Assembly: GCA_018303185.1 (NCBI GenBank)
Contig: JAGVYR010000069.1
Span: 1-41,955 of the forward strand
Direction: 5' to 3'
DNA from: Candidatus Woesearchaeota archaeon
GTDB lineage: Archaea > Nanobdellota > Nanobdellia > Woesearchaeales > GW2011-AR4
DNA length: 41,955 nt
Both the position numbers and the translations under genes were made by a program. The number at the start of each line of letters is the position of its first letter. The first letter of the stretch is position 1. Shown here piece after piece: positions 4,535-19,714 of the stretch. The notes under the pieces are model-generated. The model searched no databases and was not told the origin of the DNA. It saw only the letters and a program-made list of their open reading frames with translations.

Positions 4535-5152
4535 ATGGGAAAGGACTACATCAGGGAAGCTGTAAGGAAATTTCTTAAAGACAAGGATGCCAAGGTCATA
4601 AAGATTCCTTATGACATGAAAAGGATGAATTCTGCCTACCAGTGGTGGCGATTGAGAAATCCTTTTTACATGCTCTGGACAGCATTCATTGTTGAAGTCT
4701 GCCGCAAGCTGCCTCCATGTGAGTTCAAGAACCACCTTTACAGGATGATTGGCATGAAGATAGGCAAAGACGTAACTATAAGCCCTGATGTGATAATGGA
4801 CTGGCTCTTTCCAGAGCTTATAACCATAGAAGACGGGGTTTTAGTTGGGGGAGACATGATAGTTGCAACCCACGAATTCATCATTGACAGGATTATGCTT
4901 GGTCGTGTTCGCATTGGGAAACAGGCAATGCTTGCTTCCTGGGTATGCATCAATCCGGGAGTTGACATTGGAGAGAGAAGCATAATAGGCCTGTTTTCTT
5001 ACTGCAGGGATGACGTGCCTGCATACAGCTTTACCGCAGGGATTCCTGCAAAAGTTGTAAAGATGCTCGATAAAAACAGCTATCTTGCGCCTGTGAAGCC
5101 GGAAGACAGGAAGATAGAAGTCGTAAAATACAGTTCTGGAAAAGAAAAGTAG
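4535..5152 (+). CDS. Hexapeptide-repeat (left-handed beta-helix) acyltransferase, paralogue 1
   Basis: This 205-residue protein has an N-terminal helical part (1-70) and then left-handed beta-helix repeats: IGKDVTISP, ITIEDGVLVGGD, VRIGKQAML, VDIGERSIIG. It ends with the AGIPAKVVK signature common to maltose-, serine- and xenobiotic-acetyltransferases. His113 in ATHEF is at the position expected for the catalytic His. Family members move acetyl or other acyl groups from CoA to sugars, amino acids or antibiotics; the acceptor here is unknown. A second paralogue follows 26 bp downstream, then the phosphohistidine-domain genes. It is soluble, though the N-terminal aromatic patch may touch a membrane. 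Confidence 0.8.
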   Translation: MGKDYIREAVRKFLKDKDAKVIKIPYDMKRMNSAYQWWRLRNPFYMLWTAFIVEVCRKLPPCEFKNHLYRMIGMKIGKDVTISPDVIMDWLFPELITIEDGVLVGGDMIVATHEFIIDRIMLGRVRIGKQAMLASWVCINPGVDIGERSIIGLFSYCRDDVPAYSFTAGIPAKVVKMLDKNSYLAPVKPEDRKIEVVKYSSGKEK

Positions 5153-5178: not shown

Positions 5179-5778
5179 ATGGCTGACAGCTATTGGAAAT
5201 CTGTTAGGGGCGCAATAAGGGAGATGCGCACAAATCCTGATATAAAGAAGATAACTTTCGCATACAGGGGCAAGAAAGACTCCTCGCAGGATGACTGGCA
5301 TAAGCTGAGAAATCCAATCAGAATGCTGTTCACAGCCTTTGTCTTTGAAATCCTGAGAAAAACGCCGCCATGCCGCATCAAAAACTCTGTCTACAGGCTT
5401 TTTGGGGTTAAGATAGGCAGTGGCGTCTCGATTGCATACAATGTCCTGCCAGACCCCTTATTTCCTGAATTTCTTACCATAGAAGACGGAGTGATGATAG
5501 GCTCTGACTGCGAGTTTGCAACCCATGAGTTTTTAAGAAAATCATTCACCATAGGGAGGACAGTGATAAAGAGAAATGCAATGATATCAGGATACAACAT
5601 ACTACGGGCAGGCGTAACAATAGGTGAAAATTCAATGACAGGAGCGTACACTTTTGTGAGCAAGGATGTAGATAAGAACATTTTTGCCGCAGGGATTCCT
5701 GCAAAGCCCATAAAGGAGATAAATCCGGATGCGCAGGTGCCGGAAAAAGAGATTGAAATAGTAAAGTATGGAGAATGA
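5179..5778 (+). CDS. Hexapeptide-repeat acyltransferase, paralogue 2
   Basis: The 199-residue protein shares with its upstream neighbour the order PPC..KN..YR..G.KIG, LFPE, TIEDGV, G.D, ATHEF and AGIPAK, so the two come from a duplication, but the N-terminal 60 residues have diverged. The likely catalytic His is 116. Beta-helix turns include VKIGSGVSI, VTIGENSMTG and a final AGIPAKPIK. The stop overlaps the ATG of the next gene in an ATGA junction, which suggests translational coupling with the first phosphohistidine-domain protein. The acceptor is unknown. The two acyltransferases may work as a heteromeric beta-helix trimer, which is inference. Confidence 0.8.
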   Translation: MADSYWKSVRGAIREMRTNPDIKKITFAYRGKKDSSQDDWHKLRNPIRMLFTAFVFEILRKTPPCRIKNSVYRLFGVKIGSGVSIAYNVLPDPLFPEFLTIEDGVMIGSDCEFATHEFLRKSFTIGRTVIKRNAMISGYNILRAGVTIGENSMTGAYTFVSKDVDKNIFAAGIPAKPIKEINPDAQVPEKEIEIVKYGE

Positions 5779-7277
5779 GCCTTCTAAAAATAGCTAAAAG
5801 CGTCTCATGGTACAAGCAGGGAGGGGCTGCTGTGCCGTTCTTTATTGAAGTTCCGGGAATTGCAGGAAACATGAATATGCATAAAAAATACGGGCAAAGC
5901 TTCGGAAACCTGTTTATTTTCTTTGAGGATGCAAACTGCCTCTGGTATGTAAACAAGGATTCAGCCGAAAAGATGGCATATTTTTTCTGGGATAGGCACG
6001 TTTCAGACCCAAAGTACCTCACGAGCCTTTACAATGGATGGAAAAGAAAGTTCATAAGGAACACTGGCCTGTGCACGGATTTGCTGGCAAAAGACTTTTC
6101 AAAGGCGGATAAGCGGCAACTGATAAAATATTATGAGAAATTCCTGAATACGAATCTGGATTCATGGGTGCCTGCGATTTTTATTGACTGCTTTGACCCT
6201 TTCGGAGAAAAAATCCTGATGGAAGAGGTAAAAAGCGGCTTTGGAGGAAAGAATCCATTAAGCCCGGCAGAGGTAGAGTCCATGCTTGCAACCGACAAGC
6301 CCACTTATTATTCTATCCTTCGCGAAGAGCTGTTAAAGGCAGCCGTTCAATTAAGGAAATCAGAAATAAAAAACAATCTGCCAGAAATGCCAGAACTTGA
6401 AAAGAAACTTAAAAAAATATCACAAAGGTTTTTCTGGGTAAACAACAACTATGCCGGCGCAAAACATCTCGACGAGCATTATTTTTTCAATGAATTAAAG
6501 CATATTCTAAAGGCCTCAAAAGGCCCCATGAAGGGGCTTGAGGCGATATATTCCGAAAGAAAGAAAAAAGCCATGCTAAAGAAGGAGATAATAAGAAGGC
6601 ATAATATCCCAAAATCCCTGATTTCGCACTTCAGATTCTTTTCGTTCCTGACTTACTGGAGGGATGAAAGGAAAAAATTCTCGCAGATGTCTAATGCTAT
6701 ATATGACAAGTTGATCCACGAACTTAGCAGAAGGTCCGGAATAGGGGCTGAATTGCTGAAATACATAACCCTTGATGAGTATAAAAAAGTCCTTCTGAAA
6801 TCGGAAAAAAGCCTTGAGCCAAGGCTCAGGAAAAGGATGCAGAATTTTGCCATCTACATTGATGTTGCCGGAAATAGCCATTTTTTCATTGAAAACAGGA
6901 AAAAAGTCAGGGCTATCATGAAGAAGATAATAGATTCGCTGCAAAAGCATAAGGGAGAAATTAAAGGCACCTCCGCAAGCCTCGGGCTGGCAAGGGGAAA
7001 AGTGAAGATAGTGCTTGACGAGAGGCATTTCGGCAAAATGAAAAAAGGAGATGTTCTTGTGGCGCAGATGACCCGCCCCGAATACCTGCCTGTGATGAAA
7101 CTCGCTTCGGCTATAATAACGGATGAAGGAGGCATAACGAGCCATGCGGCTATCGTAAGCAGGGAACTGAAAATTCCGTGTGTGATAGGCACTCAAACTG
7201 CAACTACCTCATTAAAAGACGGCACGCATGTTGAAGTGAATGCAAATGAGGGCATAGTAAAGGTACTGAAAAAATGA
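5775..7277 (+). CDS. PEP-utiliser mobile-domain protein 1 (helical domain + phosphohistidine domain)
   Basis: The 500-residue protein ends in a complete swivelling domain of PEP synthase / rifampicin phosphotransferase type (about 385-500). It has the GDVLVAQMTRPEYLP strand-helix and the phosphorylation signature [16 protein letters not shown] with His457. The first 380 residues are mostly helical and match neither an ATP-grasp nor a TIM-barrel domain. Family-specific motifs are RFFWVNNNYAG, YWRDERKKF and HELSRRSGI. The protein alone therefore has a phosphate-carrying His but no way to charge it. The ATP-grasp protein encoded at 16269 is the obvious partner, which is inference. It is joined to both neighbours by 4-base ATGA overlaps. 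Confidence 0.8.
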   Translation: MSLLKIAKSVSWYKQGGAAVPFFIEVPGIAGNMNMHKKYGQSFGNLFIFFEDANCLWYVNKDSAEKMAYFFWDRHVSDPKYLTSLYNGWKRKFIRNTGLCTDLLAKDFSKADKRQLIKYYEKFLNTNLDSWVPAIFIDCFDPFGEKILMEEVKSGFGGKNPLSPAEVESMLATDKPTYYSILREELLKAAVQLRKSEIKNNLPEMPELEKKLKKISQRFFWVNNNYAGAKHLDEHYFFNELKHILKASKGPMKGLEAIYSERKKKAMLKKEIIRRHNIPKSLISHFRFFSFLTYWRDERKKFSQMSNAIYDKLIHELSRRSGIGAELLKYITLDEYKKVLLKSEKSLEPRLRKRMQNFAIYIDVAGNSHFFIENRKKVRAIMKKIIDSLQKHKGEIKGTSASLGLARGKVKIVLDERHFGKMKKGDVLVAQMTRPEYLPVMKLASAIITDEGGITSHAAIVSRELKIPCVIGTQTATTSLKDGTHVEVNANEGIVKVLKK

Positions 7278-8662
7278 AATTCATAGACGATATGGACAAG
7301 ATGGGCGGCTTTGAGGCCTCTATCCTCGGTACATCTGTAATCCCGGAAGTCGTCAGGAGGGTAGACCTGCTTTTTCCAGTGAAAATAAGGTATCACTGCA
7401 GCCTCCTGAGGAAAATCGGGCAGGCAGAGGAATATGTGAAGCTGGAAGTCATGGGTGAAGAGAGCGAGAAGCTCATTGGCATGCTGCTCAGCGGAAAATT
7501 GAAATTTTCCTTCTTTTCTTCAATAGGAAAAAGGCTCAATCAAGCGACAAAGAGTATGGACCCCTTCTGCCGGAATGAAATCCGGAGGCTTAAGGAATTT
7601 TCCGGCAAAAAGCTGCTGTCCTCATATAAAAAAATTATGGATATCTACATGCACTATTATGCTGTCGGGGGCTTTACCTTCATCTATGAGTCGTATCTTG
7701 CCGAGGCGCTTATTGCTTCATTAAAGGGAAAGATGGATAGCCCAGAGGATTTTGCTTTTTCCTACATGGATTCAAAGAGCAAAAATTATGTCAGCTATAT
7801 GATTGAATATGAAAAAGCCCTAGCTAAACTTTCAAAAAATCCCTCGGAAAAAGCCAGAAAAAGTATTTTGGATGATTTTTATTATATAAAATCGAATTTT
7901 CTTGATTCTAAGATGCTTAATGACAGCATAATAATGAAGGATATGCAGCACCTTTATGGGAAAAAGCCGCATCTCCATAAAAAGCTCTCAGAAGCGCAGA
8001 TGAAGAATCAGCTGAAGAAGCTGCCGCAAAAGGACAAAGTGATGCTGGAAGTATTGGCCTTATCCCTTCCTCTCAGGGACATGCGCAAAAGGCTCAACCA
8101 AACAGGTCAGTTCATAATGTTCCGCTTTTTTGACGAGGCATTGAGGAGAAAAGGCATTGAAAAGAAAAGAGCAATTTTTTTGAGGATGTTCTGGAACGAA
8201 TTCGGAGATTTGCTGAAAAATCCGGCAAAGCTTGAAAAGAGGCTCATAAAAAGAAGGTCCGCAACTCTTTATTTCGGCAATGGAAAGGCATTATACCTTC
8301 CCGGGATAGCGATAAAGAAGAGAAAGCCAGTAAAAAATGATGTGCTGAAGGGTGTGATAGCATCAAAGGGCAGCGCAAAAGGGGCAGCAAGGATAATCCT
8401 TGGGCAGAAAGATTTCCATAAATTCAGGAAAGGCGACATCCTTATATCAGAGGCGACAAGGCCGGAATTTCTGCCAATAATGAAAAAGGCTGCCGCGATA
8501 GTGACAGAGGAAGGCGGCATAACGAGCCACGCGGCTATTGTATCAAGGGAGCTGAAAGTGCCGTGCATTGTTGGAGTGAGCCACATAACATCCATACTGA
8601 AAAACGGGGACAAAGTTGAAGTGGATGCAAATACAGGGACAATCAAGTTGCTGAAAAAATGA
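7274..8662 (+). CDS. PEP-utiliser mobile-domain protein 2 (divergent)
   Basis: The 462-residue protein carries the same C-terminal swivelling domain, with GDILISEATRPEFLP and [16 protein letters not shown]; the carrier is His419. It is the shortest and most divergent member. The aromatic F/YFW..N.Y motif and the W.DDRK motif of its siblings are missing or unrecognisable, and the EISRR.GI motif appears only as DEALRRKGIEKK. It also lacks a long N-terminal aromatic region. It overlaps both neighbours through ATGA junctions, so the three genes are likely made at similar levels. It may be a specialised acceptor-binding variant or a structural partner. Confidence 0.78.
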   Translation: MKFIDDMDKMGGFEASILGTSVIPEVVRRVDLLFPVKIRYHCSLLRKIGQAEEYVKLEVMGEESEKLIGMLLSGKLKFSFFSSIGKRLNQATKSMDPFCRNEIRRLKEFSGKKLLSSYKKIMDIYMHYYAVGGFTFIYESYLAEALIASLKGKMDSPEDFAFSYMDSKSKNYVSYMIEYEKALAKLSKNPSEKARKSILDDFYYIKSNFLDSKMLNDSIIMKDMQHLYGKKPHLHKKLSEAQMKNQLKKLPQKDKVMLEVLALSLPLRDMRKRLNQTGQFIMFRFFDEALRRKGIEKKRAIFLRMFWNEFGDLLKNPAKLEKRLIKRRSATLYFGNGKALYLPGIAIKKRKPVKNDVLKGVIASKGSAKGAARIILGQKDFHKFRKGDILISEATRPEFLPIMKKAAAIVTEEGGITSHAAIVSRELKVPCIVGVSHITSILKNGDKVEVDANTGTIKLLKK

Positions 8663-10116
8663 TAAATCCGGAAAATGAGCTTTTTGTCTGGGGGCCAATA
8701 GACGGCAGGCCTGTTTACACCTCATTTTTTGTCGTAGCAATGAAACAGAAGCCAAAATACACGTACAGATGGCCAGAATTCCTGTTTTATTTCTCAAAGA
8801 CAAAGATGATGCTCATAGCTGATTATGCTGCGCTTAGAAATGTCGGGAAAAAATCATTCATGAAATGGATAATGGATGACAATAACCTGAAGAAATTGGA
8901 AAGAGACTATAAGGCCGCGAGAAAAAACCTAAAAAAGCTTGAGAAAACAATAAATAGAGAACATCTAAAAACCCTTTCGGAAAATGAATTTAAAAAATCG
9001 TTCCTTAAATGGAATTCCCTCTATCTGGAATTCTGGATTGTAGGCCTTGTCCCGGAGCTTTCAAACTGGGGCGGCGAGCAGATTCTTAGGGAAAAGCTTT
9101 CTGGCATAATAAAAGGCAACAAAAAATTCCTTAAGGCAATGGAAACGCTTTCAGCGCCCGAAGACCTGTCTTTCTATCAGAAGGAGGAACTGGACATGCT
9201 TAATATAATAAGATATTCAAAAAACGCGCCATTATTCAATAAGCTCCTGGAATCCCATTCAAAGAAGTACTTCTGGATAGGCAACAGCTACTTTGAGCAG
9301 AAAATCCTTGACAAAAGCCATTTCAGGAAGCAGCTTTCTCATATAAGCTCAAAAGCCGTTTCAAAAAAAATACGCCAGATAAAAAGCTACCATAACAAAA
9401 TAAAAAAGCAGAAAAAAGGCTTCATAAAAAAATACAGATTTGGCAGGCATATCGAAAAAATATCAAAAAGGCTGAGCCACTCCATATGGTGGCAGGACGC
9501 AAGAAAAGAGCAGATATTTACTTCAAACCACTACGTAGAATTATTTCTTAATGAGATATCGAGGAGGAAGAAAATAAGGCTACTTGACCTTAAGTTCTAT
9601 TCAGAGAATGAGCTGTCAGACTTGGTAAGGTACAATAAGAAAGTTTCTCAGTCAACAATCTCGCACAGGAAGAAGAAATGCCTTTGGCATTATGCAGGAA
9701 AAAGGCTGGTGTTTGATGTAGGAGACAATATATCAAGGATAATTAAGCCATTTATTGAAAAAAATACAGAAAATCATGACGGCATTTTGAAAGGCCTGGT
9801 TGTGAGCTTCGGCAAAGGCCCTGTAAAAGGAAAAGCGAGGATTCTGCTTACGCCCAGAAATGCCCATTTTTTGAAAAAAGGAGAAATACTTGTCGCTCCG
9901 ATGACTTCCCCTGATTATGTGACTGCAATGAGAAAAGCAGCAGCGATAGTGACAGACGAGGGCGGCATGACGAGCCATGCGGCCATTGTCAGCAGAGAGC
10001 TCGGGATTCCATGCGTTGTCGGCACCAAGATAGCTACAAAAGCCCTTAAGAACGGAATGAATGTTGAAGTGGATGCCGATTCCGGCATTGTCAGGATTCT
10101 GAAAGATCAGATGTAA
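8659..10116 (+). CDS. PEP-utiliser mobile-domain protein 3
   Basis: The 485-residue protein has a Lys-rich helical N-terminal part and the swivelling domain at about 370-485. The phosphorylation signature is [16 protein letters not shown], with His440. The helical region keeps the array motifs: KYFWIGNSYFEQ, WWQDARKEQ, NHYVELFLNEISRRKKI. The N-terminus (WGPIDGRPVYTSFF) is rich in aromatic residues, as in proteins 1 and 5. It starts in an ATGA overlap with protein 2 and is the last gene of the tightly coupled run; 70 bp and a TATA box separate it from protein 4. No ATP-grasp or TIM-barrel domain is present. Confidence 0.8.
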   Translation: MINPENELFVWGPIDGRPVYTSFFVVAMKQKPKYTYRWPEFLFYFSKTKMMLIADYAALRNVGKKSFMKWIMDDNNLKKLERDYKAARKNLKKLEKTINREHLKTLSENEFKKSFLKWNSLYLEFWIVGLVPELSNWGGEQILREKLSGIIKGNKKFLKAMETLSAPEDLSFYQKEELDMLNIIRYSKNAPLFNKLLESHSKKYFWIGNSYFEQKILDKSHFRKQLSHISSKAVSKKIRQIKSYHNKIKKQKKGFIKKYRFGRHIEKISKRLSHSIWWQDARKEQIFTSNHYVELFLNEISRRKKIRLLDLKFYSENELSDLVRYNKKVSQSTISHRKKKCLWHYAGKRLVFDVGDNISRIIKPFIEKNTENHDGILKGLVVSFGKGPVKGKARILLTPRNAHFLKKGEILVAPMTSPDYVTAMRKAAAIVTDEGGMTSHAAIVSRELGIPCVVGTKIATKALKNGMNVEVDADSGIVRILKDQM

Positions 10117-10147
10117 GTTCATTTATGCATTGCCATTAAACCATAAG

Positions 10148-10158
10148 CTTTATTAATA
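10148..10158 (+). promoter_or_regulatory. TATA box of mobile-domain protein 4
   Basis: CTTTATTAATA lies about 34 bases before the ATG at 10187, giving a nearly leaderless transcript. It marks a new transcription unit after the coupled genes upstream. Confidence 0.55.
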
Positions 10159-10186
10159 GTGTAAACATTCTTAAACAATTGTAAAC

Positions 10187-11878
10187 ATGGAAAGGCAACT
10201 GGTTCAGATTCCGGCGGAACAGGTCAACAAGCTGAAGGAGCTTGACAGGCACAGGACAGATTTGGCAGGCTATCCAATCTCAAAAAAAGTGCACATACTG
10301 CTGCAGGAAAAGCTCGCGGACATATTCGGGAGCAGGTTATTGAAGCCCGGCAACGAGATAAGGAAGGGCGATTGGTTCGAATACATAAGGGAGCCTTTGC
10401 CCGCCCACGTCATGGCTCCTATCGCCATAGGTGTTGTAAAGTATTCAGGAGAGATGATAGGAAAGCCTTTTACAAGGATACTTGTGGCAACTGACGGCAG
10501 CAAGACCTGGTGGTGCAATTATAAGGAAGATATATGCAGCATTGGAAATTATCTCATATCAGCATTCATTGACAGGAAATTCTCATTAGATTATCATGCA
10601 AAATACATAAGCTTTATCGATCGGACAAGGAAGTTTTTTGAAAAATACAGGAAAGAAGACCTTTCCAAGTTCTCAAATAGGAGGCTTTCTGAGGAATATG
10701 CTTTTGCCTGTAAAGTATTGATGCAGTTCCATGCGCTGTCTTTTGACATAGATGCCATCGACATAGTTCTTGAGGAAAAGCTCAAGGAGAAGTTAAAATC
10801 AGTCATTGAGTCAGGGAAAAAATTCGGCAAGCATGATTTTAATACGGCATACAGCGCCCTTACAACACCTTCTGAGGCTTCATACATAAACAAGGAGCAG
10901 TTATTGCTCTATGAGATTTCAAAAAAGATAATTGGCAGCAAAAAGCTCTCAGGCCTGTTTAAGTATGATTCCGGCATAATATTGCCGCAGCTGGGCAAAT
11001 ATCCGTCAATAAAGAAATGTTTCTCTGACCTTGAGGAAAAATACTGGTGGACAGGACTTGGATGGACTACATGGAAGGAAAAGGGCATGAAAGAGTTCGT
11101 AGGCGAGGTAAAAAGCATACTTAGCGGAGAAGAAGATATTGGCAGCGAGATTGGCAGAATAAGAAATTTCAGCAAGAGCATAATCAGCCAAAAGAAGCAG
11201 ATAGCATCTGATCTAAGTTTTGATGAAGAGATGCTTCTCTACATGGACATATTCGACAGGTATGCAGCCTTGCATGATTGCAGGAAAGAGCTGCAGATGA
11301 AAGGCACTTTTGTCCTGAACAGATTCCTGTGCGAGATTTCAGGAAGATATGGGTGCAATTATGATTTGCTGCTGTGGCATATGCCGTCGGAAATAATGGA
11401 ACTTATGAACACCGGGAAGGCGGATTATGAGAAGGCACGGAAAAGAAAAGAAGCATCATTGTTCCTGTTCTACAAGGATAGCATTGAGGAGTATACTGGA
11501 GAGGCAGCTATAAGGAAAAGGGAGGAAGAGCTTGCTCCGGATGTCAGGGATATAAGGGATTTCAAGGGTCTGATAGCGTCTTTCGGAAAAGCCACAGGAA
11601 AGGCAAAAGTCTGCTTCTCCGCTTCAGAAGCGTCAGGAAAAATAAAGAAAGGCGACATCCTTGTTGCAAGCATGACAACGCCCGACTATTTGCCTGCAAT
11701 GAAAAAGGCAGCTGCCATAGTCACAGACGAAGGTGGAATTACAAGCCATGCTGCCATAGTAAGCAGGGAGCTTAAGATACCCTGTGTTGTCGGAACAAGA
11801 GTCGCTACAAAAGTGCTGAAAGACAATACTGCTGTAGAAGTAAATGCCAACCACGGCTCTGTGAAGGTGCTCGACTGA
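10187..11878 (+). CDS. PEP-utiliser mobile-domain protein 4
   Basis: The 563-residue protein is one of the longest of the array. An extra N-terminal part (1-120) includes LVQIPAEQV, echoed by LVQIPAEACI in protein 6, and a beta-rich stretch ending in [16 protein letters not shown]. The array motifs are KYWWTGLGW and [10 protein letters not shown]. The swivelling domain runs from about 450 to the end, with [20 protein letters not shown] and [16 protein letters not shown]; the carrier is His521. The shared N-terminal element with protein 6 suggests these two form a subgroup. It has its own TATA box, and a separate promoter follows before pta. Confidence 0.8.
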
Positions 11879-11891
11879 TTAATGCAGAAAC

Positions 11892-11900
11892 TTTTTAAAC
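11892..11900 (+). promoter_or_regulatory. TATA box of pta
   Basis: TTTTTAAAC is about 31-39 bases before the pta ATG. A G-run (GGGGGG) near 11920-11925 forms the ribosome binding site, so this transcript has a short leader. Confidence 0.6.
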
Positions 11901-11930
11901 ACACAGCTTCTAGCAGCGTGGGGGGATAGC

Positions 11931-12923
11931 ATGACAGATGTTAAAAAAATCCTGATGGACGGCGCAAGGCAGAAGCCTGTGAAAGTCATTGTCCACGAGG
12001 CTGACGATGAGCGAGTTCTTAGGGCGACAGAAATAATTCTTAAGGAAAAGATAGCGATTCCAGTCCTTATAGGTGAAAATATAGAAAAAATACAGGCTCT
12101 CATAAAAAAGTTAGGCCTTAACCTGAGCAATGTCGAGCTTATCACACCAAAAACATATTCAAATAAAGAAAGCCTCGCAAAAGAGCTTTATGAACTGAGA
12201 AAGTACAAGGGCCTTTCTTTGGAGGACGCTAAGAAGCTGCTTGATGACCAATTCTATCTTGGAGTAATGCTCCTTCACAAAGGCGAAGCGGGCGCAATAA
12301 CAGGAACATGCGTATATCCGACAGCAGCCTTGATGAAGCCCGCGCTCCAGATAATAAAGACAAAAGACGGAGTGGCAGCCTGCGGAGTCAGCATAATGAT
12401 TGACCGGAAGATGAACAAAGTTTTCCTGGCAGCAGACGCTGACATAACCATTGACCCGAATGCAGAGCAGCTTGCCGACATAGCGGTAAGCACTGCAAAT
12501 GCAGCAGAAGCCCTGGGAATAGAGCCGAAAGTCGCTTTCCTCTCATACTCGACAAAAGGCTCTGGCGGCGGGCATCCAAGCCTTGGAAAGATAAGGCAGG
12601 CTCTTGAGCTGGCAAAAAAGAAGAAGCCCGGCGTTATCATTGACGGCGAGCTTCAGCTGGATGCCGCAATCCTGAAGGAAGGCTGCATGAGGAAATGCCC
12701 AGCCAGCCCCGTCAAGGGAGAAGCCAATTGCCTTATATTTCCTGACCTCACTTCAGCTAATATAGGCCTTAAGCTCTGGATGGAATTCGGGGATGTGCAG
12801 TACATAGGCCCTCTGAACATGGGCATGAAAAAGCCGGTCAATGAGCTGGGCAGGACATTCAAGCCTGAAGACATCGCAAACACTGTCATGCTGTGCGCAT
12901 TCATGGCAAATAAAGGGATATGA
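11931..12923 (+). CDS. pta: Phosphate acetyltransferase (phosphotransacetylase)
   Basis: The enzyme interconverts acetyl-CoA plus phosphate with acetyl phosphate plus CoA. The 330-residue length is that of a single-domain Pta. Signatures include SYSTKGSGGG..PS, DGELQLDAAI, ANCLIFPDLTSANIGLKL and the C-terminal IGPLNMGMKKPVNEL. It has its own TATA box and ribosome binding site, and the next mobile-domain gene starts 9 bp after its stop, so the two are probably cotranscribed. No acetate kinase or ADP-forming acetyl-CoA synthetase is in the window. Its place inside the phosphohistidine array suggests a link through acetyl phosphate or through acyl-CoA supply for the two acyltransferases; both ideas are inference. 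Phosphate butyryltransferase is a less likely alternative. Confidence 0.9.
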   Translation: MTDVKKILMDGARQKPVKVIVHEADDERVLRATEIILKEKIAIPVLIGENIEKIQALIKKLGLNLSNVELITPKTYSNKESLAKELYELRKYKGLSLEDAKKLLDDQFYLGVMLLHKGEAGAITGTCVYPTAALMKPALQIIKTKDGVAACGVSIMIDRKMNKVFLAADADITIDPNAEQLADIAVSTANAAEALGIEPKVAFLSYSTKGSGGGHPSLGKIRQALELAKKKKPGVIIDGELQLDAAILKEGCMRKCPASPVKGEANCLIFPDLTSANIGLKLWMEFGDVQYIGPLNMGMKKPVNELGRTFKPEDIANTVMLCAFMANKGI

Positions 12924-12932
12924 AATTCTAAA

Positions 12933-14489
12933 ATGAATAAGCTGAAAAGGTTCGAGCATCTGGCAGAAAAAAACTGGTATATACAGGGCTTTAATTGCAC
13001 TCCAAATTTCATCTATTTCGGCATAACTTCAGGCATTGTAGGGTGCAACCGCACTCTGGGTTACGGCTACAGCGCAATGGTTCATGTTTTTAAAAATGAC
13101 TATAATGAGTATCACTACAGTGTCGACGATCTCAGGTCAATAGGGGAAAACATCATAAAGAATTTCAGGAAAAACAGGAATTACATAAAATCACTTATTT
13201 CCAAGGATAACAAAGATTTCAAGCAGATATTCAAGTTCCATAGGCTTCTTGATAGTGCAAACATTAAGAAAGAAAGCACAAAAAAGCTCATAGAGATGTA
13301 CAAAAAGACGTCGGACTACTACAGCCAGTTACTCAACAGGTCGCATATAATAGAAGGATTTTCTCTGACATATGATGTGGAGATAAAAAACGCAATAGAG
13401 TCCTATCTCAAGGGAAATAAAATTGCACGGAAGCCTGAAGAAGTATTCAACATATTGACGACTCCAGAAAAATCGTCTTTCATGCTTGAGGAAGGCCGCG
13501 ATCTTCTTGGGATACTGGCATTTATACAGTCAGATAAACAGCTTTTGAATCTTTTCAAGTCGGAAAGCCAAGGAAGCATAATATTCATGCTTAAAGGCTT
13601 TCCAAAACTGCATAAGGCCCTTGAAGAACACAGAAAAAATTACTATTGGATAAAGAACTTCTACGCAGGCGCAAAAGAGCTGAAATTAAATTATTTTGTA
13701 TCAGAGCTTAAGTCAATGGTCCTGAAGGGAAGCGATGCAAAAAAGCTCATATCAGAACAGCAGGTCAGGCTGAAAAGGCTTGTTTCCGAAAAAAAGTCAT
13801 TATGGAAAAAGCTCAGTCTCCCTTCAGAGGCTAAAGGCATGATAGAGCTTTCAAATCAGCTGGGGCAGTGGCAGGATGACAGGAAAAAACAGGTGCTGCA
13901 GAGCATACACTACCTAGATGCGCTTCTTTTAGAGATAGGCAGGAGGCACGGCATAAAGGATGAATTTATGCGCTATCTGCTGCCTTATGAAGTTACAGGG
14001 CAGTTCCTAAAGAAGATAGATAACGATTTCCTCGAAGAAAGGAAAAAAGGGTGCATAATCATAGCCGAAGGAAACGCGAAAGGTCTTGTTACAGAAGTGC
14101 TTACAGGAAAAGATTGCGCAAAATTCAGGGAAATGCTGGAAGATCATAAGACTCGCGAATTCAAAGAGATAAGCGGCATCTGCGCTTCCCAGGGAAAAGC
14201 AACCGGGAAGGCAAGGGTTTGCAAGAGCCACGCAGATATTCTGAAATTCAGGGAAGGAGAGGTGCTTGTAGCGCCAATGACGCGACCCGAATACCTGCCT
14301 GCAATGAAAAAAGCCGCTGCAATCGTAACGGATGAAGGCGGCATAACAAGCCATGCTGCCATAATTTCAAGAGAACTCGGGATACCGTGCATAATAGGCA
14401 CAAAGACTGCAACAAGCCAGCTAAAGACAGGCGACATGATAGAGGTAAGGGCAAGCCACGGCGCGGTCATAATACTTGGCAGGCAATAA
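12933..14489 (+). CDS. PEP-utiliser mobile-domain protein 5
   Basis: The 518-residue protein has a Lys-rich helical N-terminal part with the array motifs NYYWIKNFYAGAKEL, QWQDDRKKQ and LLLEIGRRHGI, then the swivelling domain at about 405-518. The signature is [16 protein letters not shown] with His474; [18 protein letters not shown] precedes it. It shares NFYAGAK with NNYAGAK of protein 1, making these two a close pair. It begins 9 bp after pta. No ATP-grasp domain is present. The end of the gene overlaps the promoter region of protein 6. Confidence 0.8.
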   Translation: MNKLKRFEHLAEKNWYIQGFNCTPNFIYFGITSGIVGCNRTLGYGYSAMVHVFKNDYNEYHYSVDDLRSIGENIIKNFRKNRNYIKSLISKDNKDFKQIFKFHRLLDSANIKKESTKKLIEMYKKTSDYYSQLLNRSHIIEGFSLTYDVEIKNAIESYLKGNKIARKPEEVFNILTTPEKSSFMLEEGRDLLGILAFIQSDKQLLNLFKSESQGSIIFMLKGFPKLHKALEEHRKNYYWIKNFYAGAKELKLNYFVSELKSMVLKGSDAKKLISEQQVRLKRLVSEKKSLWKKLSLPSEAKGMIELSNQLGQWQDDRKKQVLQSIHYLDALLLEIGRRHGIKDEFMRYLLPYEVTGQFLKKIDNDFLEERKKGCIIIAEGNAKGLVTEVLTGKDCAKFREMLEDHKTREFKEISGICASQGKATGKARVCKSHADILKFREGEVLVAPMTRPEYLPAMKKAAAIVTDEGGITSHAAIISRELGIPCIIGTKTATSQLKTGDMIEVRASHGAVIILGRQ

Positions 14490-14519
14490 TCCTTTGTGAC
14501 CACATTTTCTTTGATAAAA

Positions 14520-14529
14520 TTTAAAAATA
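14520..14529 (+). promoter_or_regulatory. TATA box of mobile-domain protein 6
   Basis: TTTAAAAATA lies 20-30 bases before the ATG at 14550. This decides the start: the upstream in-frame GTG at 14496 would lie ahead of the predicted transcription start. Confidence 0.55.
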
Positions 14530-14549
14530 GTGTCCACATTCCTCGCTGC

Positions 14550-16262
14550 ATGGCTTTCATAGAAAAGCAGTCCAAGGGCGGCAAAGAATATTATTACCTT
14601 ACTAAGACAGTCAGGCACGGCAGCAGGTTCAGGAAGGTAAGAGTTCTATTGTCAGACAGGCACCTTAGCGGCAAAAAACTAGCATCACTCGCAAAAAAGA
14701 AAGAGCCAGAATTATGGAAGAAATCAAAAGCAGATAATTTCTGGCATTTCTCTTTCAAAGCGCCCGCACAAGCGAATAATGAAAAATGGGTAATCTGGGA
14801 AAGACCCTCAAACCTTTATCTTGTGCAGATACCTGCAGAAGCCTGCATAGCCCTCAAATCAAGAAATTTTGATGTAAACTGGGGCAGGACCCATCTTTTC
14901 TTCAGGAATAATATGGTGAAGGCGGCATGGGACAAAAAGCGCATGATACTGGCAGGAATATCAGTTGTAAACAGCCTGATGGACAAGGCGGTTTTTGAAA
15001 GGAAGATGGAAGAATGGAGCAGGCTGAATGCTGAGCTTCATTCACAATATGCTAAACTGGAATGCATAGGGTTTGAGCCTCTTTCAGATAAAGAATTTAT
15101 AGAAATATTCAGGAAATTTCATACGGCATTCCAGGAATGGTGGAACTTTTCCCAGGTTGCCGAGCTTATATCAGTAGCTTCTGAAAATATCCTATTGGAT
15201 GTTGTCCCTAAAAGCGCATTTGCAGCCATAACAAGCCCAAGCAAAAAATCATATACTACAATTGAAGAAGAGAAGCTGCTGGGGATAGCCCTTAAGATTA
15301 AAATGAATAAAAGGGCGCATAGCCTGTTTTCAAAGGACATAAGCTCTATAAAGAAAGGCCTTGGCAGGCTCAATGAAATAAATTCCATGCTGAAAGCGCA
15401 CACAAAGGAATATTTCTGGCAGCAGAACGGGTACATAAATACAGAGCCTTTGGCAGTGGACTATTTCATTGCCCAGATAAAGGAGATATTGGCAGACAAT
15501 ACCGACATACTTTCACTTATAAGAAAAAATAAAGACAGGATAAAATCCATAAATTCAGAAAAAAAGAAAATATTGGAAACTCTCTCCTTTGGCCCTCAAT
15601 ACAAAAAATTAGTAAGCCTGCTGGATTTTTTCTGCATATTCCAGGATGACAGGAAGGCAATTTCACTCAATGGAAACCATTATCTCGGACTGCTTCTGAA
15701 AGAAGTTTCCAGAAGAACAGGCATAAGCAGGGCATTGCTTTCCTGGAGCAGCCCTCATGAAATTCCCGCAATTTTAAAGGGAGGTTTTGATATATCAGGA
15801 TTAAGAAAGAGAATGGATCATTGCGCCATGATAATTGACGACAGTGGAACAGAAATTCTTACAGGCAACAAGTCAAGGATAGAGGAAAGGAAGCTGTTTT
15901 CTGGCAAAGGCAGCCAGAAAATAACAGAATTTGAAGGCATAAGGGCCCAGGGAGGGAAAGCAACAGGAAAAGTCCTGAAGGTGCTTGACCCAAGAAAGTC
16001 CGGAAATTTTAAGGCAGGCAGCATTCTTGTTACAACGATGACAAGCCCGGATTTCGCGCCTTTGATGAAAAAAGCCGCAGCGATAGTGACCGATGAGGGC
16101 GGCATAACCTCCCATGCCTCAATAGTCTCAAGGGAGCTCGGAATACCGTGCGTCATAGGGACAAAAATAGCCACAGAGACGCTGGAAAGCGGGGATATTA
16201 TTGAAGTGAATGCGAATCATGGGATAGTAAAGATTATTAAAAGGAAGAATGCTAACGGATGA
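14550..16262 (+). CDS. PEP-utiliser mobile-domain protein 6, with an extra N-terminal beta domain
   Basis: With the ATG at 14550 the protein has 570 residues; a GTG at 14496 would add 18. The first 45 residues (KGGKEYYYLTKTVRHGSRFRK) resemble the small YYYL-type beta domain that opens many archaeal transposase- and Fic-like proteins, and they are absent from the other five members. LVQIPAEAC follows, shared with protein 4. Array motifs are EYFWQQNGY, FQDDRKA, NHYLGLLLKEVSRRTGI. The swivelling domain has ILVTTMTSPDFAPLMKKA and [16 protein letters not shown]; the carrier is His522. The ATP-grasp gene begins 7 bases after its stop, the closest physical link between carrier and donor in this cluster. 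Confidence 0.8.
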   Translation: MAFIEKQSKGGKEYYYLTKTVRHGSRFRKVRVLLSDRHLSGKKLASLAKKKEPELWKKSKADNFWHFSFKAPAQANNEKWVIWERPSNLYLVQIPAEACIALKSRNFDVNWGRTHLFFRNNMVKAAWDKKRMILAGISVVNSLMDKAVFERKMEEWSRLNAELHSQYAKLECIGFEPLSDKEFIEIFRKFHTAFQEWWNFSQVAELISVASENILLDVVPKSAFAAITSPSKKSYTTIEEEKLLGIALKIKMNKRAHSLFSKDISSIKKGLGRLNEINSMLKAHTKEYFWQQNGYINTEPLAVDYFIAQIKEILADNTDILSLIRKNKDRIKSINSEKKKILETLSFGPQYKKLVSLLDFFCIFQDDRKAISLNGNHYLGLLLKEVSRRTGISRALLSWSSPHEIPAILKGGFDISGLRKRMDHCAMIIDDSGTEILTGNKSRIEERKLFSGKGSQKITEFEGIRAQGGKATGKVLKVLDPRKSGNFKAGSILVTTMTSPDFAPLMKKAAAIVTDEGGITSHASIVSRELGIPCVIGTKIATETLESGDIIEVNANHGIVKIIKRKNANG

Positions 16263-16268
16263 TTAAAT

Positions 16269-17699
16269 ATGGGAAGTCATGTGCTTTCATTCAAAGATAC
16301 AAAGAAGGGAGACATCTTAACAGTCGGTGGAAAAGCAGTAAACCTCGGCATCCTTTTCAACAGCGGCTTCAATGTCCCGGGCGGATTTACAGTCACTACA
16401 GAGGCATATTACAGCTTTCTTGAGCAAAATGGGCTTAATGGGAAGATAAATGAAATAATAAGCAGGATAAAATACGGCAATACAAAGAATCTGGATGTAA
16501 GCTCAAAAAAAATAAGAGGCTTTATCCTAAAGGCAAAAATAAGCAAAGATTTAGAGAACGAAATCAATGAAAAGCTAAAAACCATAAAATCCGCAAGGTT
16601 TGCTGTAAGAAGCTCAGCTACTGCTGAAGATCTGAAAGACGCGAGCTTTGCAGGCCAGCAGGACACCTACCTTTTCATCAGCAAAGATAAAGTGGCAGAG
16701 CACGTGAAAAAATGCTGGGCTTCGCTTTACACTTCAAGGGCAATATTCTACAGGAAAGAGAAGAATATAGGGCAGGGCTCAGGTCTCAAGGAAAGCAACA
16801 AAAAGATTTTCAATATTATTTCAAAAAAATTAAAGCACGGCGAATTGTCAATAATATTCCTGCCGGGATTGGGAAAATACCCTTTTGATGCCGATTATGT
16901 AGAGAAGCATTCAGGAATAAAGACCATAAGGGTTGATTCAAGAAACCCTGAAGCCATCCGGAATTCGTTGATGCTTGCAGCCGAGAAGACAGGCATCTGC
17001 CCGGTAGTGATAGGCTACAGCGACGGGGAAAAATATTTCCACAGCTATCTTGAAAAATTCGGCGATGAAGGCCTTGTAAGCGCATTCTATGGAATAGGCT
17101 CTGACAAGGGCAAGGTAGAGAAGATTATGGAAGCTAAACGGGTTTTCTACATAAATGGGGAGAAAGACAGTCTTGCTCCAGCATATGACAAGCTTTTGCT
17201 GAGATACGGAAAGGGATATGGCGGCAAGACCAAAAGGCCAGTATTCAAGGTGCCTGGAGCTACCCATGTAAGCCTTGTAAAGAACCGGCTGGACATAGGT
17301 TTTATCAGAGAAATAATAAAGGAAACTCTTGAAGTACGGCATTTCAACCCTTTCGGCATAGCAGTGGTTGTGCAGGAAATGATAGACCCGGATTTTGCAG
17401 GCGTCATGTTCACCGTTGACCCTATTTTCAAGAAGAGCATACTTGTTGAGGCAACCCACGGCGTCGGGGAGAAGCTTGTCTCAGGCCAGATTACTCCGAA
17501 CAATTATTTCATTGACAGGAAAACATACAGGATAAGCCAAAAGCACGTAAATGAAGACATTGATGAAAGCATAATTGTGAAGATAGCTAAAATTGGATCA
17601 AAGATAGAGAATATTTACAAGCACCCGCAGGACATTGAGTTTGCAGTCAAGAATAAAGAGATATTCATTCTGCAGTCAAGGGCGATAACTACTTTGTAA
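16269..17699 (+). CDS. ATP-grasp half of a PEP-synthase/RPH-like enzyme with an inserted alpha/beta-hydrolase-like domain
   Basis: Residues 1-168 and 359-476 are the two parts of the PPDK N-terminal ATP-binding domain: GGKAVNLG (20-27), FAVRSSATAEDLKDASFAGQ (111-130), VVVQEMIDPDFAGVMFTVDP (366-385), and the closing PQDIEF..ILQSRAITTL. The protein stops exactly where this domain ends, so the phosphohistidine and TIM-barrel domains of PEP synthase are absent. Between the halves sit about 190 extra residues resembling an alpha/beta-hydrolase: FLPGLGKYP, the nucleophile elbow GYSDG with Ser251, NGEKD with Asp300, and PGATH with His333. The ATP-binding residues look intact, so it is likely an active kinase-type donor. 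The natural acceptors are the swivelling domains of the six upstream proteins (inference). Confidence 0.8.
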   Translation: MGSHVLSFKDTKKGDILTVGGKAVNLGILFNSGFNVPGGFTVTTEAYYSFLEQNGLNGKINEIISRIKYGNTKNLDVSSKKIRGFILKAKISKDLENEINEKLKTIKSARFAVRSSATAEDLKDASFAGQQDTYLFISKDKVAEHVKKCWASLYTSRAIFYRKEKNIGQGSGLKESNKKIFNIISKKLKHGELSIIFLPGLGKYPFDADYVEKHSGIKTIRVDSRNPEAIRNSLMLAAEKTGICPVVIGYSDGEKYFHSYLEKFGDEGLVSAFYGIGSDKGKVEKIMEAKRVFYINGEKDSLAPAYDKLLLRYGKGYGGKTKRPVFKVPGATHVSLVKNRLDIGFIREIIKETLEVRHFNPFGIAVVVQEMIDPDFAGVMFTVDPIFKKSILVEATHGVGEKLVSGQITPNNYFIDRKTYRISQKHVNEDIDESIIVKIAKIGSKIENIYKHPQDIEFAVKNKEIFILQSRAITTL

Positions 17700-17754: not shown

Positions 17755-18357
17755 ATGCCACTCCCAAAAGCAATAATCTTTGACTTCACCGGAATCTTCT
17801 CGAATGATGACGAGATTCTCTTCATAGATGCAATCTCAAGGAAGCACAATATCGAAAGAAGCAAAGTTGAGGAAGTGTTCTACAAGCTGCAGAAGGAAGC
17901 TGAATACGGCAAATTGGAAGAAAAAGAGTTCTGCGAAAGATTTTGTAAAGAACTCAGCATTCCATTGGATTATGGGCTGTTAGATTTCAAATTCACTCTA
18001 AAGAAAATGATAAACCCTGAGATGATGAATCTGGTTGACGAATTAAGGAAAAAAGGCTTCAAGCTCGGCTTGTTGTCCAATGACAGCAACGCTTCCTGGT
18101 CAAGAGCCAAAAAAGCTTTGGATATTGAGCTGCATTTTGATATAATTGTATTCTCCCATATGGTTGGCGCAAGAAAGCCAAGCGAAGAGATATTCCAGTA
18201 TCTTCTAAAAAATCTAAACCTCGAAAAAGAGGAAATAATCTTCATTGATGACAGCGAAAAGAACGTTAAAGGAGCGGAAGATATAAGCATTAAATCCTTC
18301 TTATTCAAAACACTGGATCAAATCAAAAAAGAAATTTTGAATTTTCTGGATTCATAA
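17755..18357 (+). CDS. HAD-superfamily hydrolase, YihX-like subfamily IA
   Basis: The 200-residue protein has HAD motif I as IIFDFTGIF, where the usual second Asp of DxD is Thr, as the YihX group replaces it in FDLGNV. Motif II is LLSNDS, motif III the Lys of GARKPSEEIF, and motif IV IIFIDDSEKN. An alpha-helical cap lies between motifs I and II. Relatives are small-molecule phosphatases such as sugar-1-phosphate phosphatase; the substrate here is unknown. It lies 55 bp after the ATP-grasp gene, with an AT-rich gap that could hold a promoter, so membership in that operon is uncertain. Confidence 0.75.
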   Translation: MPLPKAIIFDFTGIFSNDDEILFIDAISRKHNIERSKVEEVFYKLQKEAEYGKLEEKEFCERFCKELSIPLDYGLLDFKFTLKKMINPEMMNLVDELRKKGFKLGLLSNDSNASWSRAKKALDIELHFDIIVFSHMVGARKPSEEIFQYLLKNLNLEKEEIIFIDDSEKNVKGAEDISIKSFLFKTLDQIKKEILNFLDS

Positions 18358-18543: not shown

Positions 18544-18678
18544 ATGAAACTGAAACTAAGCATATCGATGGACGAGGAAACAGTGCGTGTCCTGGAGGAG
18601 TCTTTGAAAGAAGGGAGATTCAGGAACAAGAGCCACGTCATAGAATACGCTGTGAACTCGTTTTTGAAGCAGAACTAG
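18544..18678 (+). CDS. Ribbon-helix-helix (CopG/MetJ-type) DNA-binding protein, 44 aa
   Basis: The short protein MKLKLSISMDEETVRVLEE... has the layout of a ribbon-helix-helix: an N-terminal beta-strand (KLKLSISMD), helix 1 (EETVRVLEESLKEG), the turn RFRNKSH, and helix 2 (VIEYAVNSFLKQ). Such proteins dimerise through the strand and bind short palindromes in DNA. GGTGG at 18535-18539 serves as ribosome binding site. It begins 13 bases after the palindrome at 18518-18530 and ends 7 bases before the hydrolase-like gene, so it probably controls that operon and itself. Confidence 0.8.
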   Translation: MKLKLSISMDEETVRVLEESLKEGRFRNKSHVIEYAVNSFLKQN

Positions 18679-18685
18679 GTGAAAA

Positions 18686-19714
18686 ATGCCGGAAGAAGCA
18701 ATTGCCGAAGCAACAGAAGCGCCTCCTGAAGAGGCTAATGCTGCAGAAGCACAAAACGAAGCTGACCTTGAAGAAAGGATAGAATCAGCCGAACACTCAG
18801 AAAGGGAATACAGCCCTAAAGAGGAATATGGAGCTAGAGGTACTTCTGAAGATTATGAAACCCATGAAGATAATTTTGGCGATACTGAAAAGTATGAAAG
18901 AAGCGGCAGGAAGGAAACTAAAGAAGGCGGAAGCGAGAGAAATTGGGCTTCAAAATACGGAAAATCAGGCAAAGAAAGCAAGGCAAAAGCACATTCAAAA
19001 ATATCAAAAGACGAAAAGAGCAGGCTTGAAGAAATTCTTGACAAGGACATTGAGGAGTATGCAGAGGAATGGATAGAGAAATTTGGATACTGGCCGAAGG
19101 AGATATACTACATAATCAAGAGCTTCCTGAAAACAGGCAGCATAGATGATGAAAACCCGTATAAGGTGATTGACAGGAAGGCAAGGGACAGGGAGCCTTT
19201 GGCATTATTCCTGCCTGGAGTTTGCAAGAACCCTTACGACACTTCAGAATTTGAAAAATACACGGGCTTTCCCACAGTAAGGATTGGCACTTATGATCCA
19301 AGAGAAATAAACAAAATTCTTGATTATGCCGCAAGAAAGACCGGAGTAGGCTCAATACTCATTGGATACAGCGACGGCGGCATAAGGGCAAAAGAAGCCG
19401 TGGAATTGACGGGCGGAAAGAACATAAGCATGTACTATGGAGTGGATGCTAACAAAGGAGACGTTGAAAAATACATGGATCCGAGGAGGGTAGCATACAT
19501 AAACGGAGCCTCAGTAGAGCCCGGACATCTTGTGGGCATTTTTGAGTCAATCTTTTACGGGCATGCCAATGCCCATACAGACAGGCCTATATTCAAGATA
19601 CCCGGGGCATCGCACGCAGAACTTGCACACGGCCGCAATGCTATCTCCCAGATAGGAGATATAATAAGGAACACAGCAAGAATTAAGTACAATCCCCAAT
19701 TTTCTATGAATTAG
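18686..19714 (+). CDS. Stand-alone alpha/beta-hydrolase-like protein related to the ATP-grasp insert
   Basis: The 342-residue protein opens with about 110 acidic, Glu-rich, probably disordered residues, then a short helical part, then a 170-residue domain clearly related to the insert of the ATP-grasp protein. Shared features are LALFLPGVCKNP / LSIIFLPGLGKYP, AARKTG / AAEKTG, GYSDG (Ser229), KGDVEKYM / KGKVEKIM, RRVAYING / KRVFYING, RPIFKIPGASH / RPVFKVPGATH (His310). The acid position Asp300 of the insert is replaced here (NGASVEP), so the triad may use Glu or be incomplete. AGGTG 5 bases before the ATG is the ribosome binding site. Its stop overlaps the end of the convergent tmk gene. The substrate is unknown. 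Confidence 0.7.
   Translation: MPEEAIAEATEAPPEEANAAEAQNEADLEERIESAEHSEREYSPKEEYGARGTSEDYETHEDNFGDTEKYERSGRKETKEGGSERNWASKYGKSGKESKAKAHSKISKDEKSRLEEILDKDIEEYAEEWIEKFGYWPKEIYYIIKSFLKTGSIDDENPYKVIDRKARDREPLALFLPGVCKNPYDTSEFEKYTGFPTVRIGTYDPREINKILDYAARKTGVGSILIGYSDGGIRAKEAVELTGGKNISMYYGVDANKGDVEKYMDPRRVAYINGASVEPGHLVGIFESIFYGHANAHTDRPIFKIPGASHAELAHGRNAISQIGDIIRNTARIKYNPQFSMN

Follow-up and report, generated by a model that had tools for sequence, protein, structure and literature searches.

What role would a hydrolase domain have in the middle of a kinase subunit? The question is raised by an archaeal gene at positions 16269–17699 of a 41,955-nucleotide stretch of contig JAGVYR010000069.1, hereafter the window, all features of which described below lie on the forward strand. 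The genome carrying the window (1.62 Mb, 91% complete) is archaeal, and a TFIIS-type zinc ribbon, DUF460 and RtcA-, Trm1- and aIF5B-like proteins are encoded. The open reading frame is intact and its 476 amino acid product matches the Pfam family PPDK_N with 265.7 bits, although the match is split into three pieces, the first covering residues 18–168 (profile positions 3–161) with the profile picking up again at position 165 beyond the insert. Structures of PEP synthase and of rifampin phosphotransferase (RPH) likewise flank the insert, aligning to residues 3–165 and 363–475.

The protein consists of a first ATP-grasp part (residues 1–165; 16269–16763), an inserted domain (residues about 170–360; 16776–17348) and a second ATP-grasp part (residues 363–476; 17355–17696) delineated by alignment to structures and relatives. 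Reading along the chain, VRSSATAEDL starts at residue 113, GYSDG at 249, NGEKD at 296, PGATH at 329 and VVVQEM at 366. The N- and C-terminal parts of the ATP-grasp domain are thus not contiguous, being separated by about 190–195 residues as compared to 3–5 residues in seven aligned I-type (ATP-grasp) subunits encoded elsewhere in the order, all lacking the insert. This confirms the original prediction of two ATP-grasp halves split by some 190 residues where the usual enzymes have at most a short linker. The motifs GGK, VRSSA and GQQDT of the first part align with conserved counterparts in other I subunits and in RPH, and are the equivalents of the RPH nucleotide-binding residues Lys22, Arg117 and Thr136 (PMC4844700). 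In the structure of HpeI, a single loop between strands 5 and 6 joins the two ATP-grasp lobes (PMC12167813). Residue counting against HpeI places the insert, as an estimate, in an N-lobe loop that leads directly into the final strand of that lobe (IAVVVQEM) and lies some 30 residues short of the inter-lobe hinge; a location at the hinge itself was rejected on the same count.

By Pfam, the 476-residue chain comprises ATP-grasp alone and has neither a swivel/His domain (PEP-utilizers) nor a substrate domain. These are found instead on six proteins encoded upstream (5775–16262), each combining a variable helical region with a swivel domain at the C-terminus that bears TxEGGxTSH, and none containing an ATP-grasp domain. 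Such a division is characteristic of the two-component dikinases HpeHI, CreHI and PpsAB, in which an I chain is paired with an H chain and HpeH carries the motif T/SxxGGxxxH (PMC12167813), also present in all six nearby proteins. Based on PF00391, alignment and motif, we designate them H subunits 1 (5775–7277; helical substrate-binding region and swivel domain with TDEGGITSH, His457), 2 (7274–8662; His419), 3 (8659–10116; His440), 4 (10187–11878; His521), 5 (12933–14489; His474) and 6 (14496–16262; His540), the last ending six bases upstream of the ATP-grasp gene. The PEP/pyruvate-binding barrel (PEP-utilizers C) is absent from the I subunit and all six H subunits according to Pfam, and identity as a PEP synthase was rejected on this basis. 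The operon is accordingly classed, from its domain content, as a two-component dikinase of the HpeHI type with one I and six H subunits.

Accompanying genes hint at acetyl chemistry. Two hexapeptide O-acetyltransferase-like proteins (4535–5152 and 5179–5778; both PF00132) precede the H genes, and a phosphotransacetylase-like protein (11931–12923; PF01515, E 9.9e-91, with NCBIfam phosphotransacetylase models somewhat below cut-off) is encoded between H subunits 4 and 5. The NCBIfam model closest to the hexapeptide proteins is heptaprenylglyceryl phosphate O-acetyltransferase YvoF, but with scores of 101 and 85.9 bits both are so far under the curated cut-off of 300 that no substrate is implied. 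Downstream of the interrupted gene are a HAD-family phosphatase-like protein (17755–18357; PF00702, E 6.7e-20), with related HADs in other operons, and a 44-residue ORF (18544–18678) that is ribbon-helix-helix-like by sequence pattern rather than by family search and sits directly upstream of a stand-alone hydrolase gene (18686–19714). Three genomes have such a small ORF directly ahead of the stand-alone hydrolase gene or overlapping it (window 18544–18678; L012:6590-6763; L027:2057-2239), the homologues in genomes G035 and G154 overlapping the start of the hydrolase gene, and TAGTAGT/ACTACT repeats are found upstream in the window. The arrangement looks like an autoregulated pair.

The inserted domain itself is predicted to be an alpha/beta-hydrolase. 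It has a GxSxG nucleophile elbow, GYSDG (17013–17027), with a predicted strand before and a predicted helix after, in which Ser251 (17019–17021) and Gly are invariant across ten family members. The presumed triad acid Asp300 in NGEKD (17166–17168) and the presumed catalytic His333 in PGATH (17265–17267) follow downstream, so that the Ser-Asp-His order typical of this fold, which had been read from the same three motifs, holds for the insert. Alignment of the ten divergent members (mean column identity 39%) leaves only six invariant columns, Ser251 and His333 among them, while the triad Asp is kept in seven of the ten and missing from both stand-alone paralogues of the genomes that carry the fusion. 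Statistical similarity to known alpha/beta-hydrolases was found in two comparisons. A ten-member profile searched against the PDB returned three alpha/beta-hydrolases at the top, 4x00 (E 8.7e-4), 3fob (4.2e-3) and 4dgq (6.3e-3), with matches aligning at the nucleophile elbow; and an earlier profile of the family recovered lipase-like ORFs with HSMGG and NSMGG elbows within the order (per-genome E 1.4e-6 and 6.8e-5). No curated Pfam family matched the inserted domain above cut-off.

Predicted structures were of low confidence or gave mixed results, and the fold assignment is thus grounded in sequence profiles, which support the alpha/beta-hydrolase-like nature originally proposed. AlphaFold2 modelled the full-length 476-residue protein poorly from a three-row alignment (pLDDT 40); Foldseek with this model placed alpha/beta-hydrolases at the top, including Bacillus subtilis lipase A (TM 0.55 by target length), none of them at E≤0.001. 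A model of the insert based on a two-row alignment with its paralogue (pTM 0.68) reached good confidence only over roughly its first 123 residues, where strands alternate with helices and Ser251 lies at a strand-helix turn with pLDDT of about 80–90. Around Asp300 and His333 the pLDDT fell below 50, leaving the triad without a confident placement, and Foldseek with the insert model alone gave a mixed list of alpha/beta folds with none at E≤0.001.

The likely origin of the insert lies a short distance downstream. The stand-alone gene at 18686–19714 encodes a charged N-terminal region followed by a hydrolase domain (19145–19699) with Ser and His kept and Asp absent, and the insert shares 36% identity over 184 amino acids with this C-terminal domain, of which it is best described as a diverged copy. 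Among 353 genomes of the order, nine contain the hydrolase domain (E≤1e-6; G234 is a weak partial match): seven have it as a separate gene at a locus with H subunits, G002 has it fused to another partner, and two, the window genome and G035, have it inside the ATP-grasp gene. G035 belongs to a different genus and also retains a stand-alone copy, as does the window genome. The domain order sought in other archaea therefore recurs in one further genus, where the interrupted gene is 77% identical over 476 amino acids (insert 80%), shares the same junctions without frame disruption and is located in a syntenic operon. In a phylogenetic tree, the insert groups with the stand-alone copies of both fusion genomes (support 80/84) and with G154 (98/96), a pattern consistent with duplication of the neighbouring gene in a lineage ancestral to both genera. 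No relative of the inserted domain was found in the viral contigs searched, and a scan of genome contigs revealed only an uninterrupted bacterial ATP-grasp/swivel protein.

The insert is under purifying selection and its free paralogue diverges fast. Comparison of the two genera gives 80% identity for the insert (dN 0.12, dS 1.05; the dS values are a rough guide only since synonymous sites are near saturation), which is thus no less conserved than the ATP-grasp parts (71% and 81%); identity falls to 39% in the stand-alone domain (dN 0.58), from which Asp has disappeared in both genomes. This pattern suggests that a conserved, presumably catalytic role has passed to the inserted copy. Synonymous change between the genera affects 37% of conserved codons in the insert as compared to about 50% in the flanks (16776–17348 versus L012:7446-8876; Fisher p 0.017), a difference that could be due to constraint, gene conversion or chance.

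Operons of this kind extend well beyond the two genera. Of 288 genomes of the order, 55 encode H-type proteins, and sampling across the phylum showed these proteins to be almost confined to this order. Other loci encode 2 to 12 H genes together with acetyltransferase-like, phosphotransacetylase-like, HAD and I genes. Where a locus has two or more H genes plus an acetyltransferase-like gene (20 loci), an alpha/beta-hydrolase gene is present in the stretch examined in 16 cases. These hydrolases fall into two sequence groups. The insert family and the second group (GHSSGG, STHFG) showed no significant homology (hhalign P 0.22) though the two are collinear, and in a ranking of 457 ORFs three of nine took places 12–14; the two groups may be analogous. 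A C-terminal K/R-A-A is present in 8 of the 16 operon alpha/beta-hydrolases, in both sequence groups (e.g. L012:5551-6594, L104:16774-17754), and is absent from all 404 further proteins encoded at these loci; it is possibly a sorting, docking or processing tail.

Other fusions also occur at these loci. The G002 protein (L014:9945-11753) joins two hexapeptide acyltransferase-like domains to the same hydrolase domain as the insert in 602 residues, and adjoins both a phosphomannomutase-like gene and a nucleotidyltransferase gene (L014:8878-9732) whose product has a ribbon-helix-helix-looking N-terminus. Tandem arrays of H modules make up proteins of 1414 (G142:C31 L092:4426-8670), 2815 (G039:C6 L126:7320-15767) and 2937 residues (G296:C44 L127:1-8814) and a 4201-residue open frame (G075:C37 L125:12314-19999; 2562 residues within the stretch fetched). 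The ATP-grasp subunit is fused behind several H modules in G199 (L094:5610-10637; 1675 residues) and behind a lone swivel domain in G216 (L105:3428-4816; 462 residues). A second HAD-like protein (DLLIIDIDDTFIYHR), with no Pfam match and weak SerB similarity, occurs repeatedly next to phosphotransacetylase-like genes in operons from other families (L093:213-1025, L094:16253-17053, L111:11184-11954).

We posit the following explanation for the interrupted gene. In the ancestor of the two related genera, the hydrolase domain of an operon neighbour was duplicated into a surface loop of the I-subunit N-lobe. ATP bound by the I subunit would serve to phosphorylate the swivel-domain His of the separate H subunits, and each H subunit would then hand it on to a hydroxyl group of the substrate that it binds. 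Most likely, the inserted domain would be an active serine esterase or deacetylase working through Ser251-Asp300-His333, and would probably act on a substrate of the same pathway, for example by taking off acetyl groups added by the hexapeptide O-acetyltransferases. The insertion, the sequence-based family assignment, the duplication, the conserved triad, the purifying selection and the link to the operon are shown by the data; we infer the activity, the ester substrate and the coupling, and consider a serine esterase or deacetylase within the dikinase pathway, beside the phosphorylation step, to have slightly less than an even chance of being correct. A copy of the hydrolase inserted into the kinase subunit with its catalytic residues intact suggests that ester cleavage and phosphorylation share one pathway, and the presence of both domains in one chain would keep deacylation and phosphorylation at one place. 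The ATP-grasp fusion, the acetyltransferase-like fusion of G002 and the recurring association in operons together support a shared function. Retention of Ser, Asp and His by the insert in both genera favours an active triad as most likely. Counting against this, stand-alone copies persist without the Asp, indicating that some family members survive with an incomplete triad, and the fusion is rare, with two instances among 353 genomes from the order. Homologues of YvoF acetylate archaeal lipids and their range can be broad (PMC9179154), which makes lipid acetylation a lead rather than a result.

The main rival to an esterase is a docking or scaffold domain that would recruit H subunits, acetyltransferases or substrate to the single I subunit, its catalytic residues being vestigial or of secondary importance. 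Six H subunits depend on one I subunit, and a docking surface would be useful given that no stable complex of HpeH and HpeI was observed (PMC12167813); moreover, the loss of Asp from the stand-alone copies of both genomes indicates that the fold can persist without a complete triad. We nevertheless consider docking rather unlikely, because all three triad residues are retained by the insert of either genus, the family as a whole shows no variation in Ser and His, and other operons have equal or greater numbers of H subunits without any insert.

Alpha/beta-hydrolase folds also catalyse acyl transfer, and instead of hydrolysing an ester product the insert might serve the same pathway as an acyltransferase or thioesterase, with acetyl-CoA or acyl chains as substrates. 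The phosphotransacetylase and O-acetyltransferase-like proteins of the operon do imply acetyl-CoA chemistry; however, the Pfam and NCBIfam models included no acyltransferase-specific family that matched the insert, and a role in acetyl transfer is already covered by the hexapeptide proteins, making this reading improbable. Gating, whereby ATP binding would control the hydrolase allosterically or a ligand-sensing hydrolase would control the kinase, is less probable again and in our view very unlikely: HpeI-like subunits close on ATP (PMC12167813) and by the estimated mapping the insert loop precedes the strand leading to the inter-lobe hinge, but the same residue count puts the loop about 30 residues ahead of that hinge. 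An insertion without function, carried as a passenger, or an artefact of assembly or annotation would suit the restriction of the fusion to two genomes of the order but is scarcely credible, as chance and misassembly are ruled out by the same interrupted gene with identical junctions and 80% insert identity in an independent, separately assembled genome of another genus, and a degenerate passenger was rejected in view of the undisrupted frame, a low dN well under dS, and the kept catalytic residues, with Ser and His invariant.

A wider picture can be drawn, which we hold tentatively as a possibility clearly short of even. The order would possess a previously undescribed modular pathway in which one ATP-grasp donor charges many different phosphohistidine H subunits, free or fused in tandem, in company with O-acetyltransferases, phosphotransacetylase and an alpha/beta-hydrolase; in the present lineage, the hydrolase would have been built into the donor to give a single machine for acyl protection, deprotection and phosphorylation of one substrate. 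The fusion acts as a Rosetta stone: it connects the phosphoryl donor with a hydrolase found alongside these operons, just as G002 links the same domain to an acetyltransferase-like partner. It also provides a testable way into a large, expanded H-subunit family of a poorly understood archaeal order.

Both the dikinase type and the hydrolase fold are already known; new, in as far as neither was found in the open-access literature searched, are the hydrolase inserted into an ATP-grasp dikinase subunit and the many-H operons, although absence is not thereby proven. The hexapeptide proteins resemble the YvoF/maltose O-acetyltransferase family, scoring best against the YvoF model, but differ from YvoF in reaching only 101 and 86 bits against its curated cut-off of 300. 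The insert resembles minimal alpha/beta-hydrolases such as Bacillus subtilis lipase A in its size of about 180 residues, GxSxG elbow and Ser-Asp-His order, and differs from lipase A in being embedded in an ATP-grasp fold and in having no Pfam family above cut-off. ATP-grasp and swivel domains are shared with PEP synthase and PPDK, in contrast to the split arrangement and the lack of a PEP/pyruvate-binding barrel on the chains scanned. Like RPH, the window system has a PPDK_N ATP-grasp with equivalents of Lys22, Arg117 and Thr136 and a swivel His domain C-terminal to the substrate-binding part, whereas in RPH these parts form one chain, which lacks a hydrolase insert, and here they are on separate chains. 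The closest likeness is to HpeHI, CreHI and PpsAB, which also have the ATP-grasp (I) and the substrate-binding and swivel His portions (H) on separate chains encoded by adjacent genes, with T/SxxGGxxxH; in contrast to these, the system described here is archaeal, employs one I subunit for six H paralogues, and carries a hydrolase domain inserted into its I subunit.
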